From NCBI GenBank assembly GCA_023205875.1, contig CP060754.1, positions 558,001 through 622,000 of the forward strand: a stretch of DNA of 64,000 nt, in the 5' to 3' direction. A program made the position numbers and the translations under genes. The DNA is from Chloropicon primus (Eukaryota > Chlorophyta > Chloropicophyceae > Chloropicales > Chloropicaceae). Below are positions 9,032-12,837 of this stretch, in pieces (the stretch's first letter is position 1; each line of letters begins with the position of its first letter). Under the pieces are notes generated by a model. The model did not search any database. It had not been told where the DNA came from and saw nothing but the letters and a program-made list of their open reading frames with translations.

Positions 9032-9070
<39 letters not shown>
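9032..9070. repeat. (CT)n microsatellite upstream of Sec61 beta
   Basis: A 39-bp uninterrupted CT tract, reading GA in the Sec61 beta sense, within the 136-bp divergent spacer to the next gene. Confidence 0.95.
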
Positions 9071-9287: not shown

Positions 9288-9366
<79 letters not shown>

Positions 9367-9591: not shown

Positions 9592-11895
9592 TTACTTCAA
9601 AAGCTCCTCCAGCGTTCCCATCTTCGTAATGCTGCACACGCTCTTCAGAAGGCCGCACGCAACAAGGGCTGCAGATCCCTCTCCCAAACGCATACCCATG
9701 GTCAGCGCAGGGAGGGGAGGGAGGGGAAGACCGCTGGCCTCGGCCACCTTTGCAATGGCGGTCAGAGCAATTTTATGACCGGGCTCCGAGGTCACCAGGT
9801 CGGGAAAGAAAAGCACGCGGATGCACAGGGGGCTGATGTGACTCGCGATGAGCGCTGCAACAGTGCAAATGTATCCGTCCACCAAAACTGGCACGCTCTT
9901 CTCTGATGCCTCCAAGATGCTTCCAACGAGTGCACACAGCTCGGCGCCACCGAAGCGTGCGAGGAGTGCTGTCGGACCCCCCGTTCGAACGCCGCCGCTT
10001 TGCGAGGACAGAGCTTTCCGAACAATGCCAACCTTCTTGGCAATGGCCTTCTTTGAGATTTCCCTTCCAACCGTTGCCCCCACTCCGCAGGCTTCCTTGG
10101 GGTCACAGCCTGTCAAAGCACAGAGGAGCAGGGAGGAGATCGTCGTGTTGCCTATTCCAATCTCGCCCAAGAGGATCAAGTCATGCTGCTGTGCTAACGC
10201 CTCTCTGACCTTGGTCCTTCCCACCTCCATCAGCTTGAACACTTCCCCGCTGGTCATGGCATGGCCCCTGCAGCAGTTTCGCGTGCCTTCCCTCAACTTG
10301 AACGAAACCTCTGCTTTCGCATCACTCGGCGGGTCTCCACGGCCCTCGCTGACCCCCACGTCCACGACCTTCAGGTCCACATTGTTTGCTTTGGCCAAGA
10401 CCGGAGCTGCTGTCAGCCCAGTGTTGAGACCTTTCAAAATGCTCCTGGTCACCTCCTGGGGGAAGCCAGAGCACCCCTCCCCGCCCCTCGCCTCGCTCTT
10501 CGCCACCCCATGGTCGGCGCAAAAGATGATGAGCACCGGAGAGCGTATGGAAGGGGTAGGTGATTTCTGCAAGGCTGCTAACCGCGCGCACCAGTCCTCA
10601 AGAGTGCCTAACGAACCCACGGGCTTGCATTTGCGATCCAGCTCTTCAGTCATTGCTTCATACATGTCCGCAAAGTCACCTTCCAATGCAAGGGCCTCGC
10701 CCCCTTTCGCGGAGACGCTGGTCCCCCCCCTCTTCTTCGAAGTGAGCTCCCTTTGGAACACATCGGGGGGGCCAACAGCAGCACACCAAAGGCACAAAAA
10801 CAGACTGGCGAGGGCGAGTCTATACACCGCCCCTTCGCTCTCCATGATGAGCCAAAGGCCCCGGTCACCCGTCACGAGGTCTCTGAGATCCCAGCGCCCC
10901 TCCAAAACCTTCATGGCGATCCCCTCCAGACTGGCCCTTGCCAGAATCGTCGTGAACGCCACAAGCTCCGCCACGCATATTGTTGCCCCGAGGTAGTCCC
11001 CCAAAACTCCTCCCAAGAGGTACCTCGCGTACCTGCCAGATAGCCACGCGGTCAGAAAGACGGCGGCGAGCAGGAGCCAAGTCCAGACCCCGCTCCCGTA
11101 ACAGAGGACGCCCACGGCCACCGTGTAGAGGCTGGCGAAGCTCACCCTTCCAAGAGTCACGAGCTCCTTGGCCCTGAGCATGAAGCCATAGAACCTGTGC
11201 TTCGGGCCACCTTCGTCGACGTAAGGGTTCGTGGCCAGAAGGTATGGGGCCGTCCATCTCGCGGCAGCGTGTGCCACGACAAGGGCCGGTCCAGCCCCGC
11301 TGCAGTCCATCCACGCCCAACGAGAATTTCCGAGAGAAGAGAGGAGCTCGAGCTTTGCCACCACGTAGAGCACGAGCGTGGCGCAGCCGTAAGTCCCGAG
11401 CCTCGTGTCGCTCATAATTTTGAGGATCTGGCTCTTGCTCCAACCACCTCCTATGCCATCGGCGGAGTCCGCGAGCCCATCCTCGTGAAAGCACCCTGTC
11501 ATCCAGAAGGAGAACCCGGTGGAGATCGCCGCTGAGACGGTGGCTGGAAGGGCCAAAAAGTCCACGGCGAAATCAAACCAAACGCTGACGAACAGGCCCA
11601 CTATGCTCCCGGCGAGGGGGAAGTACGCCATCCCCCGCATGAGGTAACCCGGGTGGTGGTCGACCCAAGTGGGGGCAGGCAGGCGAGTGATGAACGTCCA
11701 GACCGTGAAAAACGCCCTAATCTCCGCCCTGAGACCTGAGCTCCCCCCCTCCCCACGGAGGAAGTCGGAGATCTCCTTGTCCACATCGCTCGACCCGCGC
11801 GTGCCCTGGCCCCGTGCCTCAACTGTCCCCCTCTCCAGCACCGACGTGTCCTTCTCCTGGACCCCCTCCCTCCTGATCCCGTTGTTCACGGCCAT
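9592..11895 (-). CDS. CobS-CobT fusion: cobalamin nucleotide-loop assembly enzyme
   Basis: The first ATG (11895) gives 767 residues. Residues ~55-375 are CobS, adenosylcobinamide-GDP ribazoletransferase: a polytopic membrane protein with the acidic motif HEDGLADSADG (137-147) and MSDTRLGTYG (161-170). Residues ~410-767 are CobT, nicotinate-nucleotide:DMB phosphoribosyltransferase: ADHGVA (460-465), GEIGIGNTT (577-585), VDGYICTVAA (672-681), SEPGH (703-707) and MRLGEGSA with Glu739 as the expected catalytic base. CobT makes alpha-ribazole phosphate from dimethylbenzimidazole, and CobS joins it to cobinamide-GDP, so one chain could do both steps. In algae this would serve B12 salvage or conversion of pseudocobalamin, not full synthesis. 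The gene is intronless and host-like in base composition. Residues 1-54 are hydrophilic, with no clear targeting signal. CobU and CobC are not in the window. Confidence 0.93.
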   Translation of the reverse strand: MAVNNGIRREGVQEKDTSVLERGTVEARGQGTRGSSDVDKEISDFLRGEGGSSGLRAEIRAFFTVWTFITRLPAPTWVDHHPGYLMRGMAYFPLAGSIVGLFVSVWFDFAVDFLALPATVSAAISTGFSFWMTGCFHEDGLADSADGIGGGWSKSQILKIMSDTRLGTYGCATLVLYVVAKLELLSSLGNSRWAWMDCSGAGPALVVAHAAARWTAPYLLATNPYVDEGGPKHRFYGFMLRAKELVTLGRVSFASLYTVAVGVLCYGSGVWTWLLLAAVFLTAWLSGRYARYLLGGVLGDYLGATICVAELVAFTTILARASLEGIAMKVLEGRWDLRDLVTGDRGLWLIMESEGAVYRLALASLFLCLWCAAVGPPDVFQRELTSKKRGGTSVSAKGGEALALEGDFADMYEAMTEELDRKCKPVGSLGTLEDWCARLAALQKSPTPSIRSPVLIIFCADHGVAKSEARGGEGCSGFPQEVTRSILKGLNTGLTAAPVLAKANNVDLKVVDVGVSEGRGDPPSDAKAEVSFKLREGTRNCCRGHAMTSGEVFKLMEVGRTKVREALAQQHDLILLGEIGIGNTTISSLLLCALTGCDPKEACGVGATVGREISKKAIAKKVGIVRKALSSQSGGVRTGGPTALLARFGGAELCALVGSILEASEKSVPVLVDGYICTVAALIASHISPLCIRVLFFPDLVTSEPGHKIALTAIAKVAEASGLPLPPLPALTMGMRLGEGSAALVACGLLKSVCSITKMGTLEELLK

Positions 11896-12095
11896 CGCCT
11901 CGCCTCGCCCATGCCATGATCTCTCTGTCACATGAACAAACCAAACCACCAATGATCAGGAGAGGGAGGGAGGGGAGCCAGGGCAAGGACAGCTCCCAGG
12001 AGGGGCTCTTTGATCCCATGCCAACAACGGCTCGTCTGCTTGATGAAAACGACCTCCCGTGGCCCCCTCACACAACTAATGTGATATACGATAGA

Positions 12096-12837
12096 TTACA
12101 ACTTGGGCAGCAGGGGAACTCGGAACAGGAAGCAGGCACTGCTTATGGCGAGAGCAAAGTAGGAGATGCTGCCCAAGACATTGATGAGGAAGACGGTCAA
12201 ACCAAATGCAAGCGTCCTCTTCACTCTGAATTTCGCCTGCAGAAAGTTGACAAACTTCTCGAACAGGGGCGACGCCGCGACGGCAATCGAGGCTCTGATT
12301 GGCCTCAGCAGGTTTCCAAACGATAGGTAAAGGCCTCCGTAGATCCCCAAGAACGCTTTCCAGTTGCCAGCGGCGAGCGGACTGAGGCCCGTCGTTTGGC
12401 CGCAGATGACCCACGCAATTGTGATGAGCGTGCCTGGCGGGAAACAACAGGTTCGATTCGATTCGGTGAGTTGAAGAAAAAGGTGAGACGGGAAGGATGG
12501 TGTACTTACAAGCATTGACGTTCGACACGAATCCGTACGACAGGAGTACGCTTGCTCCGAGCGATGCGATCTTCTTGCGGTCCAGCCCCTTGCCCTTCTT
12601 GAAGAATGAAACCAGCTTCGCTCGAAATGAGCCCTCCTCTTCCCCTTGGTTGAACCGAAAGCTCACCCTCCCCACGCCGTTCCTAAAGGAAGCCGAGCCG
12701 CGACACGACACCTGCCTCGAACATCCGTGAGGTCGGGACCTCCCAAGTGCGACGACGCCCTGGCCTCCCTGAAACCCCGCTCGCGTCCACCAAGGGGTAG
12801 CCCTCCCCTTCGTCGTCGTCCCTGGCGAGAGCCTCAT
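12096..12837 (-). CDS. Conserved plastid membrane protein, two exons
   Basis: Exon 1 is 12837-12510, exon 2 is 12433-12096, with a 76-nt intron (donor GTAAGT, acceptor GCCAG). The 221-residue product has an Arg/Ser/Gly-rich, transit-like N-terminus, then KGKGLDRKKIASLGASVLLS with YGFVSNVNACTLITIAWVIC across the junction, GLSPLAAGNWKAFLGIYGGL, and a final membrane hairpin. The pattern, a Lys-rich stretch before a membrane domain with TGLSPLAxGxWK, matches conserved plant chloroplast proteins of unknown role. I chose the ATG at 12837; an in-frame ATG at 12927 would overlap the ATG of the divergent Deg1-like gene base for base. Confidence 0.7.

Follow-up and report, generated by a model that had tools for sequence, protein, structure and literature searches.

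A CobS–CobT fusion gene common to the green alga Chloropicon primus and diatoms, and its probable part in B12 lower-loop remodelling

Can a single eukaryotic gene encode both CobS and CobT of vitamin B12 assembly, and what would such a protein do in an alga? The locus that raises this question lies in a 64,000-nucleotide stretch of the Chloropicon primus genome (contig CP060754.1, positions 558,001 to 622,000; hereafter, the window), in which an earlier note had read a eukaryotic fusion that might be a distinct green-algal arrangement. We find that the fusion is real and eukaryotic but not special to the green alga. We put at roughly 70% the probability that its product is a membrane-embedded bifunctional enzyme that builds or rebuilds the lower (nucleotide) loop of B12 and thereby serves remodelling.

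The stop-to-stop frame spans positions 9592–11955 of the minus strand, with the first ATG at 11895 and the TAA at 9594–9592, giving a product of 767 amino acids (Table 1); residue numbers are those of the 787-amino-acid stop-to-stop frame minus 20. The start codon at 11895 is supported by the recurrence of its N-terminal pattern in relatives: M-x-NN or M-xx-NN opens 29 of 64 full-length, Met-starting fused proteins, that of C. primus included, and algal relatives start similarly to MAVNN, in the form MA-P/V-NNAL. Each domain has one match in the genome, the fusion frame being the only match for CobS and the only match for CobT.

Table 1. Features of the fusion gene, in positions of the window
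Feature	Residues	Coordinates	Strand	Remark
CobS–CobT fusion gene		9592..11895	(-)	uninterrupted 767-codon frame plus stop
N-terminal extension	1-55	11731..11895	(-)	low-confidence structure; begins MAVNN
CobS domain PF02654	66-313	10957..11700	(-)	142.7 bits (Pfam cut-off 23.2)
CobS motif HEDGLADSADG	137-147	11455..11487	(-)	matches Salmonella CobS HxDxxxDxxD motif
CobS motif GxxGDxxG	296-303	10987..11010	(-)	motif from PMC8092220 (excerpt)
Extra hydrophobic helix	355-374	10774..10833	(-)	helix in structure model
Linker, extra helix to CobT	375-407	10675..10773	(-)	partly disordered
CobT domain PF02277 (DBI_PRT)	410-763	9607..10668	(-)	277.3 bits (Pfam cut-off 22.6)
CobT motif GEIGIGNTT	577-585	10141..10167	(-)	conserved in fused sequences
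CobT motif RLGEGS	736-741	9673..9690	(-)	alignment to 1jh8

Both halves pass their Pfam models, and because the scores lie far above the cut-offs, the assignments are not due to chance. The motifs that the earlier note had seen in one uninterrupted frame were all located within complete domains, where they had been placed, including SEPGH at residues 703–707. In the CobT half, across 48 fused sequences, G577, G580, G582, N583 and T585 are invariant and E578 nearly so; R736, G738 and E739 are likewise invariant, E739 pairing in the alignment to 1jh8 with Glu317 of Salmonella CobT (RLGEG motif), which we take to be the catalytic glutamate. This half finds its best matches, by sequence and by fold, among solved CobT structures, the predicted structure reaching a target TM of up to 0.89 (1j33). 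In the CobS half, H137, D139, D143 and D146 of the first motif and G296, G299, D300 and G303 of the second are invariant in the same 48 sequences, and excerpts of PMC8092220 report mutant data by which the residues of both motifs matter in Salmonella CobS. Both active sites appear intact. Each half falls below the NCBIfam equivalog cut-offs (CobS: TIGR00317, 103.5 of 110 bits, and NF001277, 173.6 of 273; CobT: TIGR03160, 271 of 319.3, and NF000996, 270.4 of 306). Judged by sequence, the CobS half is a divergent superfamily member, a CobS by Pfam domain and motifs that stands outside the TIGR00317 and NF001277 equivalogs.

An artefact of gene model or assembly, or bacterial contamination, is next to inconceivable and finds no supporting point: the two domains share a single frame; the gene lies in the interior of a chromosome-sized contig of 1.86 Mb, its GC content is within the range of the flanking DNA and its upstream neighbour carries a GT–AG intron (approximately 12434–12509, by eye), all of which makes contamination unlikely; and both domains are covered to at least 80% in 64 of the 120 relatives listed, which argues that the CobS/CobT join is not an assembly error. 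The same count answers the earlier note's proposal to look for the fusion in other algae and contradicts the join of two loci that it had raised as a possible undoing.

What, then, holds the two enzymes together? The full-length structure model has a mean pLDDT of 85.8 and a pTM of only 0.54, so that the relative placing of the two domains is not predicted; in the linker, pLDDT drops below 50 at residues 390–400. The CobS half has approximately 8 putative membrane helices in this model, in which the helices were counted, a hydropathy scan alone not separating all of them. The last of these is an extra helix beyond the CobS domain, and the corresponding segment is hydrophobic in all 65 fused proteins of at least 740 residues (C. 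primus included). By alignment, the helix is also found in 80 of 86 CobS-only algal-type proteins, as against 0 of 31 bacterial CobS. The 86 are what remained of 113 CobS-only proteins after 27 that do not reach D300 were set aside, and some of the 113 are probably pieces of fused genes on short contigs; the six that do not have the helix are P0215, P0216, P0275, P0293, P0307 and P0317, some of them short. All 31 bacterial CobS end 2–13 residues past the column of residue 318, with tail length taken from the alignment (a motif-based measure fitted only 25 of the 31 and gave a false long tail in L073).

The extra helix bears on topology. Excerpts of PMC8092220 place CobS loops 2, 4 and 6 in the cytoplasm. 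A chain with a single helix past loop 6 would accordingly finish on the far side, and one more helix would reverse the C-terminus to the side of the active-site loops. The algal helix should therefore return the C-terminus, and hence CobT, to that side, and may keep the two active sites on one face. This predicted helix lends weight to the earlier note's idea of a membrane tether for CobT.

In the reading that we favour, the C-terminal CobT would turn dimethylbenzimidazole (DMB) and nicotinate mononucleotide into alpha-ribazole phosphate, and the N-terminal CobS would join alpha-ribazole phosphate to an activated corrinoid. With the last CobS helix bringing the C-terminus back to the active-site-loop face, the tethered CobT would release its product next to CobS; the two sites would then be close, and substrate might be handed over from one to the other. 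By this route, with dimethylbenzimidazole or alpha-ribazole that it has scavenged, C. primus could make cobalamin from cobamides that it cannot use, pseudocobalamin among them. According to excerpts of PMC4850488, pseudocobalamin is produced by cyanobacteria and is of no use to the majority of the algae tested; COBT, COBS and COBC are present in two efficient algal remodellers, and two non-remodellers are negative for CobT and CobS. The role of CobT and CobS in algal remodelling, assumed in the earlier note, is in these excerpts a correlation and not more, and one case counts against our reading: Aureococcus anophagefferens, with CobT and CobC and no CobS hit, uses pseudocobalamin at very high DMB (PMC4850488).

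The remaining B12 genes were sought by a six-frame search of the genome, which could overlook genes that introns interrupt. This search, which the earlier note had suggested for METH, METE, CobU and CobC, found METH, which appears to be triplicated; METE gave no match over the cut-off, and by its genes C. primus thus appears to depend on B12. Methylmalonyl-CoA mutase likewise had no match over the cut-off, and a PduO-type adenosyltransferase is kept (199.1 bits), as would be expected were CobS supplied with adenosylated corrinoids; the adenosyltransferase could instead serve another AdoCbl enzyme, such as class II ribonucleotide reductase. CbiB and CbiZ had no match over their cut-offs, nor did CobC, whose best candidate, with tandem phosphatase domains, scored 97.4 of 162.9 bits. 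Three candidates were rejected: the sole CobU match (23.6 bits, cut-off 27) lies in a RecA-like frame and the sole CbiR match (21.6 against 105) in a ribokinase/sugar isomerase-like frame, both by eye, and the BluB candidate (30.4 of 150 bits) is nitroreductase-like. The canonical bacterial remodelling set (CbiZ or CbiR, with CbiB and CobU) thus gave no match over cut-off in this search. CobS works on cobinamide-GDP, yet no CobU, CbiB, CbiZ or CbiR match over cut-off accounts for a supply of it. This gap, like the CobC and NCBIfam scores under their cut-offs and the low pTM, weighs against the reading that we favour.

The most probable alternative takes this gap at face value: the fusion only completes loops on cobinamide-GDP supplied by bacteria or by algal enzymes so far unrecognised, namely a hydrolase and a guanylyltransferase, both of which would be new. 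It keeps to classical CobS chemistry and to the conserved catalytic residues, and the missing CobU and remodelling enzymes could have unrelated replacements, as archaea replace CobU by the unrelated CobY. The Aureococcus case also suggests that remodelling can start without CobS (PMC4850488, excerpt). Against it stands the need for at least two undiscovered enzymes, and we place this alternative a little short of even odds.

The relatives bear on where the fusion came from. Among the relatives listed, the fused proteins that bear organism names belong to genera that we take to be diatoms, and P0068, a 712-residue protein from the mmetsp transcriptome collection, also has both domains. By these sequences the fusion is not peculiar to C. 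primus but common to a picoplanktonic green alga and diatoms, so the earlier idea of a distinct green-algal arrangement did not hold. A bacterial fusion as source was rejected (0 of 80 loci, the best 80 of 399 confirmed relatives), and of 11 viral stretches that matched a pattern none was confirmed. Both domain trees put the fused sequences together, with separate diatom CobT nested inside; in the careful trees (CobS, without L059, L064, L073 and L077, 6 fused rows; a second tree of 43 chosen rows), the C. primus fusion groups with P0002 and P0003, then with diatoms. The quick trees were thinned (CobT, every fifth bacterial sequence and every second of P0177–P0214; CobS, every second bacterial sequence); in the quick CobS tree several long branches come together, and it sets the fused P0048 and P0058 at the base of the fused and diatom clade. 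This grouping could mean that a stramenopile alga passed its copy to C. primus, which would then not have inherited it within the green lineage, and excerpts of PMC4850488 describe Chlamydomonas with COBT and COBS named separately. P0002 and P0003 may, however, themselves be green algal, and no retrieved protein is named as green algal; we regard transfer, in a direction that these sequences do not fix, as less likely than not.

A bolder form of the favoured reading, which it does not exclude, has the CobS half start remodelling by direct exchange, making the fused enzyme, and algal CobS generally, the missing remodelling enzyme. CobS would run backwards on pseudocobalamin and GMP, yielding cobinamide-GDP and an adenine nucleoside (or exchanging the base directly), and then forwards with alpha-ribazole from its own CobT half, the extra helix putting both sites on one face; no CobU, CbiB, CbiZ or CbiR would be needed. 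Most of the data fit, including the absence of matches over cut-off for these four in C. primus. Excerpts of PMC7733943 describe Vibrio cholerae CobS, to which we liken the algal enzyme by description, as remodelling cobamides other than cobalamin, and the algal remodelling enzymes as unknown, two remodelling algae having no CbiR or CbiZ homologues. A Chlamydomonas metE mutant used pseudocobalamin with DMB and not cobinamide with DMB (PMC4850488, excerpt), in line with a route that bypasses free cobinamide, although missing uptake or a missing kinase alone could explain the cobinamide failure. NF001277 is the top NCBIfam CobS model for C. primus (173.6 bits, next 107.4) and for the relatives P0257 and P0277, and the CobS of Photobacterium (Vibrionaceae) passes it at 344.1 bits. 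These scores hint at a special kinship of algal and Vibrionaceae CobS, which we rejected: the same model gives 168.5 bits for E. coli CobS and 153.3 for that of Sinorhizobium, and the CobS tree does not resolve a bacterial sister of algal CobS. Aureococcus, moreover, uses pseudocobalamin at very high DMB with no CobS hit, and a CobS running backwards would have to overcome the GDP bond energy. We consider direct exchange unlikely.

Under the favoured reading, lower-loop assembly by a bifunctional membrane enzyme, the fusion links the CobT and CobS steps physically and, with a helix that may place both active sites on one face, makes algal B12 remodelling easier to test. Some algae convert pseudocobalamin, and the single-copy fusion offers a clear single target for expression and assay; fusion and extra helix together are a possible marker for predicting which phytoplankton remodel B12.

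A CobS–CobT fusion is not described among the open-licence PMC matches listed. With bacterial CobS (cobamide 5'-phosphate synthase), the algal form has in common the domain, both motifs and the helical core; it differs in approximately 55 extra N-terminal residues, one more hydrophobic helix and, here, the fused CobT. With bacterial CobT (NaMN:DMB phosphoribosyltransferase), the fusion has in common the whole domain, the catalytic glutamates and the fold, whereas Salmonella CobT is cytosolic and separate (PMC8092220, excerpt) and that of C. primus is tethered behind a membrane enzyme. The COBT and COBS of remodelling algae (Helliwell 2016, PMC4850488) belong to the same two families in B12-using algae but are named, in the excerpts of that paper, as two proteins with no fusion described. 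In the BluB/CobT2 fusion of Propionibacterium freudenreichii (PMC4657239, excerpt), CobT is likewise fused to a neighbouring pathway step, the partner there being the DMB-making BluB and here CobS. Finally, excerpts of PMC8092220 and PMC8749415 propose a bacterial multienzyme complex that CobS anchors in the membrane and that takes in CobT and further enzymes; that complex is a proposal of separate proteins, whereas the link in C. primus is covalent, and the fusion agrees with the proposal that CobS brings its partners together at the membrane.

The fusion gene encodes CobS and CobT in a single frame, as the earlier note had claimed, with both Pfam domains found (table below), and each of the two has its sole match in the C. 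primus genome (17,584,162 bases, 20 contigs) here. Both domains score below the NCBIfam equivalog cut-offs and are therefore divergent. Contig 1 of the assembly is 1,855,637 bases long, and contigs 2 and 3 start with CCTAAAA-type repeats.

Features of the fusion gene and of related loci (L-handles denote DNA stretches; domain residue numbers are stop-to-stop frame numbers shifted by 20)
Feature	Location	Strand	Description
Fusion gene	window 9592-11895	minus	uninterrupted reading frame, 767 residues
Start MAVNNGI	window 11875-11895		N-terminus of the fusion protein
CobS domain	residues 66-313	minus	Pfam, 142.7 bits
Extra hydrophobic stretch	residues 355-374		helix in the model
CobT domain	residues 410-763	minus	Pfam, 277.3 bits
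GAT/ATC trinucleotide run	window about 9291-9366		long, just downstream of the fusion gene
GA run	window about 9034-9070		beyond the GAT/ATC run
METH	L006:239-8647; chromosome 1, 1237238-1245646 (outside window)	+	sole match; open frame, about 2800 residues
METH hydrophobic start	L006:239-600		long stretch, residues about 35-80
CobC-like frame	L089/L090; chromosome 1, 378819-379985		545 residues; two CobC-like phosphatase domains in tandem, neither of which reaches the CobC cut-off
Adenosyltransferase	L098:1453-2154	-	PduO-type cob(I)alamin family, 199.1 bits
Ribokinase-like frame	L094:19-2352	+	one frame; by eye, joined to a sugar-isomerase-like domain

Across 48 aligned fused proteins, CobS residues H137, D139, D143, D146, G296, G299, D300 and G303 and CobT residues G577, G580, G582, N583, T585, R736, G738 and E739 are invariant. 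E739 lines up with Glu317, a catalytic residue in Salmonella CobT. According to the available parts of PMC8092220, alanine in place of D82, D86 or D89 in the HxDxxxDxxD motif of Salmonella CobS abolishes growth on cobinamide with dimethylbenzimidazole (DMB), and GxxGDxxG is another conserved CobS motif. In the AlphaFold model built from the 48-sequence alignment (mean pLDDT 85.8, pTM 0.54), the predicted domains are well modelled, unlike their position relative to each other. By Foldseek the CobT half matches solved structures of CobT (1j33, target TM 0.89), and none of the 50 matches listed is a convincing structural relative of the CobS half; a sequence search of solved structures likewise matched the CobT half only. 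The safe reading is that the fusion protein is a bifunctional loop-building enzyme.

The fusion is not confined to Chloropicon. Of 5.8 billion proteins searched, 7999 candidates were scored and 137 matched; both domains are present in 107 of the 120 listed, with at least 80% coverage of each in 64. The named both-domain proteins among the matches listed, Fragilaria crotonensis, Nitzschia inconspicua, Seminavis robusta, a Bacillariaceae MAG and Stephanocyclus meneghinianus (partial), are all diatoms, and one gene-model name, CCRYP, presumably denotes Cyclotella cryptica. P0068, another relative with both domains, comes from a transcriptome collection (mmetsp). Where names are visible among the matches listed, those of fused proteins give one activity of the two only, and none of the relatives retrieved is named as green algal. 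Algal-type CobS proteins that lack a CobT domain are listed for Diacronema lutheri, another pavlovophyte, Prorocentrum cordatum, Thalassiosira exigua and Skeletonema menzelii. Among the best 80 of 399 confirmed bacterial relatives, each a locus with CobT, none (0/80) has both in one frame, CobS lying on the fetched stretch in 31; no relative was confirmed among the viral contigs searched.

In a careful CobS tree (42 rows), the 12 algal rows form one clade against bacteria (support 100/100) and the 6 fused rows form one clade (100/99); a quick CobS tree puts two fused rows at the base of a clade of fused and diatom proteins. The careful CobT tree (43 rows) has a clade of 18 (97/93) made up of Chloropicon, two proteins that group with it (P0002 and P0003) and both the fused and the unfused diatom rows; the separate CobT of Skeletonema, Thalassiosira and Nitzschia are nested within this clade. 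From sequence, the simplest reading would be a single fusion that came apart again in some diatoms. A few of the separate entries may be gene models that were split: in Skeletonema menzelii, CobT and CobS are consecutively numbered entries of a single scaffold. Chloropicon itself may have either inherited the gene or acquired it. NF001277 is the NCBIfam model closest to algal CobS (173.6 bits; next 107.4), and a Vibrionaceae CobS passes it at 344.1 bits. These scores do not establish kinship with the Vibrio enzyme, as E. coli CobS reaches 168.5 bits with this model and the careful tree leaves the bacterial sister of algal CobS unresolved.

MAPNNAL or MAVNNAL starts are common to haptophyte, dinoflagellate and diatom CobS, and 29 of the 64 full-length fused proteins beginning with Met start M-x-NN or M-xx-NN; the shared MA-P/V-NN start is unlike a usual transit peptide. 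All 15 separate algal-type CobS examined (including P0257, P0268, P0277, P0276 and P0284) end in Glu-Cys or Asp-Cys, an ending absent from the fused proteins compared.

In the model the seventh membrane helix ends at residue 318, and bacterial CobS stops 2-13 residues past the alignment column of that residue (31/31). A further hydrophobic stretch is present in 65 of 65 fused proteins, in 80 of the 86 CobS-only algal-type proteins that reach the GD motif (27 others of the 113 do not) and in each of 15 separate CobS of haptophyte and dinoflagellate type that were inspected. Because the available parts of PMC8092220 call CobS loops 2, 4 and 6 cytoplasmic, loop 6 carrying GxxGDxxG, a helix after loop 6 would take the chain to the opposite face; with one helix more it would come back to the face that bears the catalytic loops, and CobT comes next there. 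Modelled helices and hydropathy suggest that the C-terminus is brought back in this way. As the extra helix is also present in stand-alone CobS, it is probably older than the fusion and made it workable.

Genome searches ran exon by exon, such that an intron-split gene could be missed; on that scope METH is present (396.7 bits), and METE (PF01717), methylmalonyl-CoA mutase, CbiB and CbiZ have no match. CobU has none over its cut-off of 27, the one candidate (23.6 bits) being rejected as a RecA-like frame, and neither CbiR (best 21.6 of 105 bits) nor BluB (30.4 of 150) has any over cut-off; the best CobC match reaches 97.4 of 162.9 bits. The METH frame has its homocysteine- and folate-binding half three times in tandem, then the B12 half once; Pfam places both N-terminal domains there in three stretches, and the units span 2100 bases, units 1 and 2 showing 3 differences. 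This apparent triplication may be either real or an assembly error, and the hydrophobic start could be a membrane anchor if translation begins there. An adenosyltransferase without a mutase match fits the need of CobS for adenosylated corrinoids, and a class II ribonucleotide reductase could be an alternative user of its product. QueG uses B12 in bacteria. It is reported in Chloropicon in the available parts of PMC12301720, whose main text lacks the words vitamin, cobal- and METE.

As far as PMC4850488 was available, pseudocobalamin with DMB supports growth of Pavlova lutheri and of a Chlamydomonas metE mutant, the mutant fails on cobinamide with DMB, and both species have COBT, COBS and COBC, two non-remodellers being CobT- and CobS-negative. 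The available part of PMC7733943 describes the genes for algal remodelling as not identified and reports remodelling activity for V. cholerae CobS. We give plain loop completion by the fusion protein a probability of roughly 40%. A bolder reading, that CobS, supplied by the attached CobT, swaps the base of pseudocobalamin directly, would account both for the lack of CobU, CbiB, CbiZ and CbiR and for the mutant's failure to grow on cobinamide. However, Aureococcus anophagefferens, without a CobS hit, could still use pseudocobalamin at very high DMB (PMC4850488, same parts), which counts against a role of CobS; because of this result we lower the odds of direct exchange, which we consider unlikely, and slightly raise those of plain loop completion.

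Our search of the open-licence PMC literature, as far as its texts were available, found neither a CobS-CobT fusion nor the extra helix of algal CobS described. Both halves are known families. The BluB/CobT2 fusion, in the sources available, joins CobT to another step, whereas Chloropicon joins it to CobS; a CobS-centred complex in bacteria is a proposal (available parts of PMC8092220 and PMC8749415), whereas Chloropicon has CobS and CobT in one frame. With the families and the fusion of CobT to another step known already, what appears to be new here is the joining of CobS to CobT.
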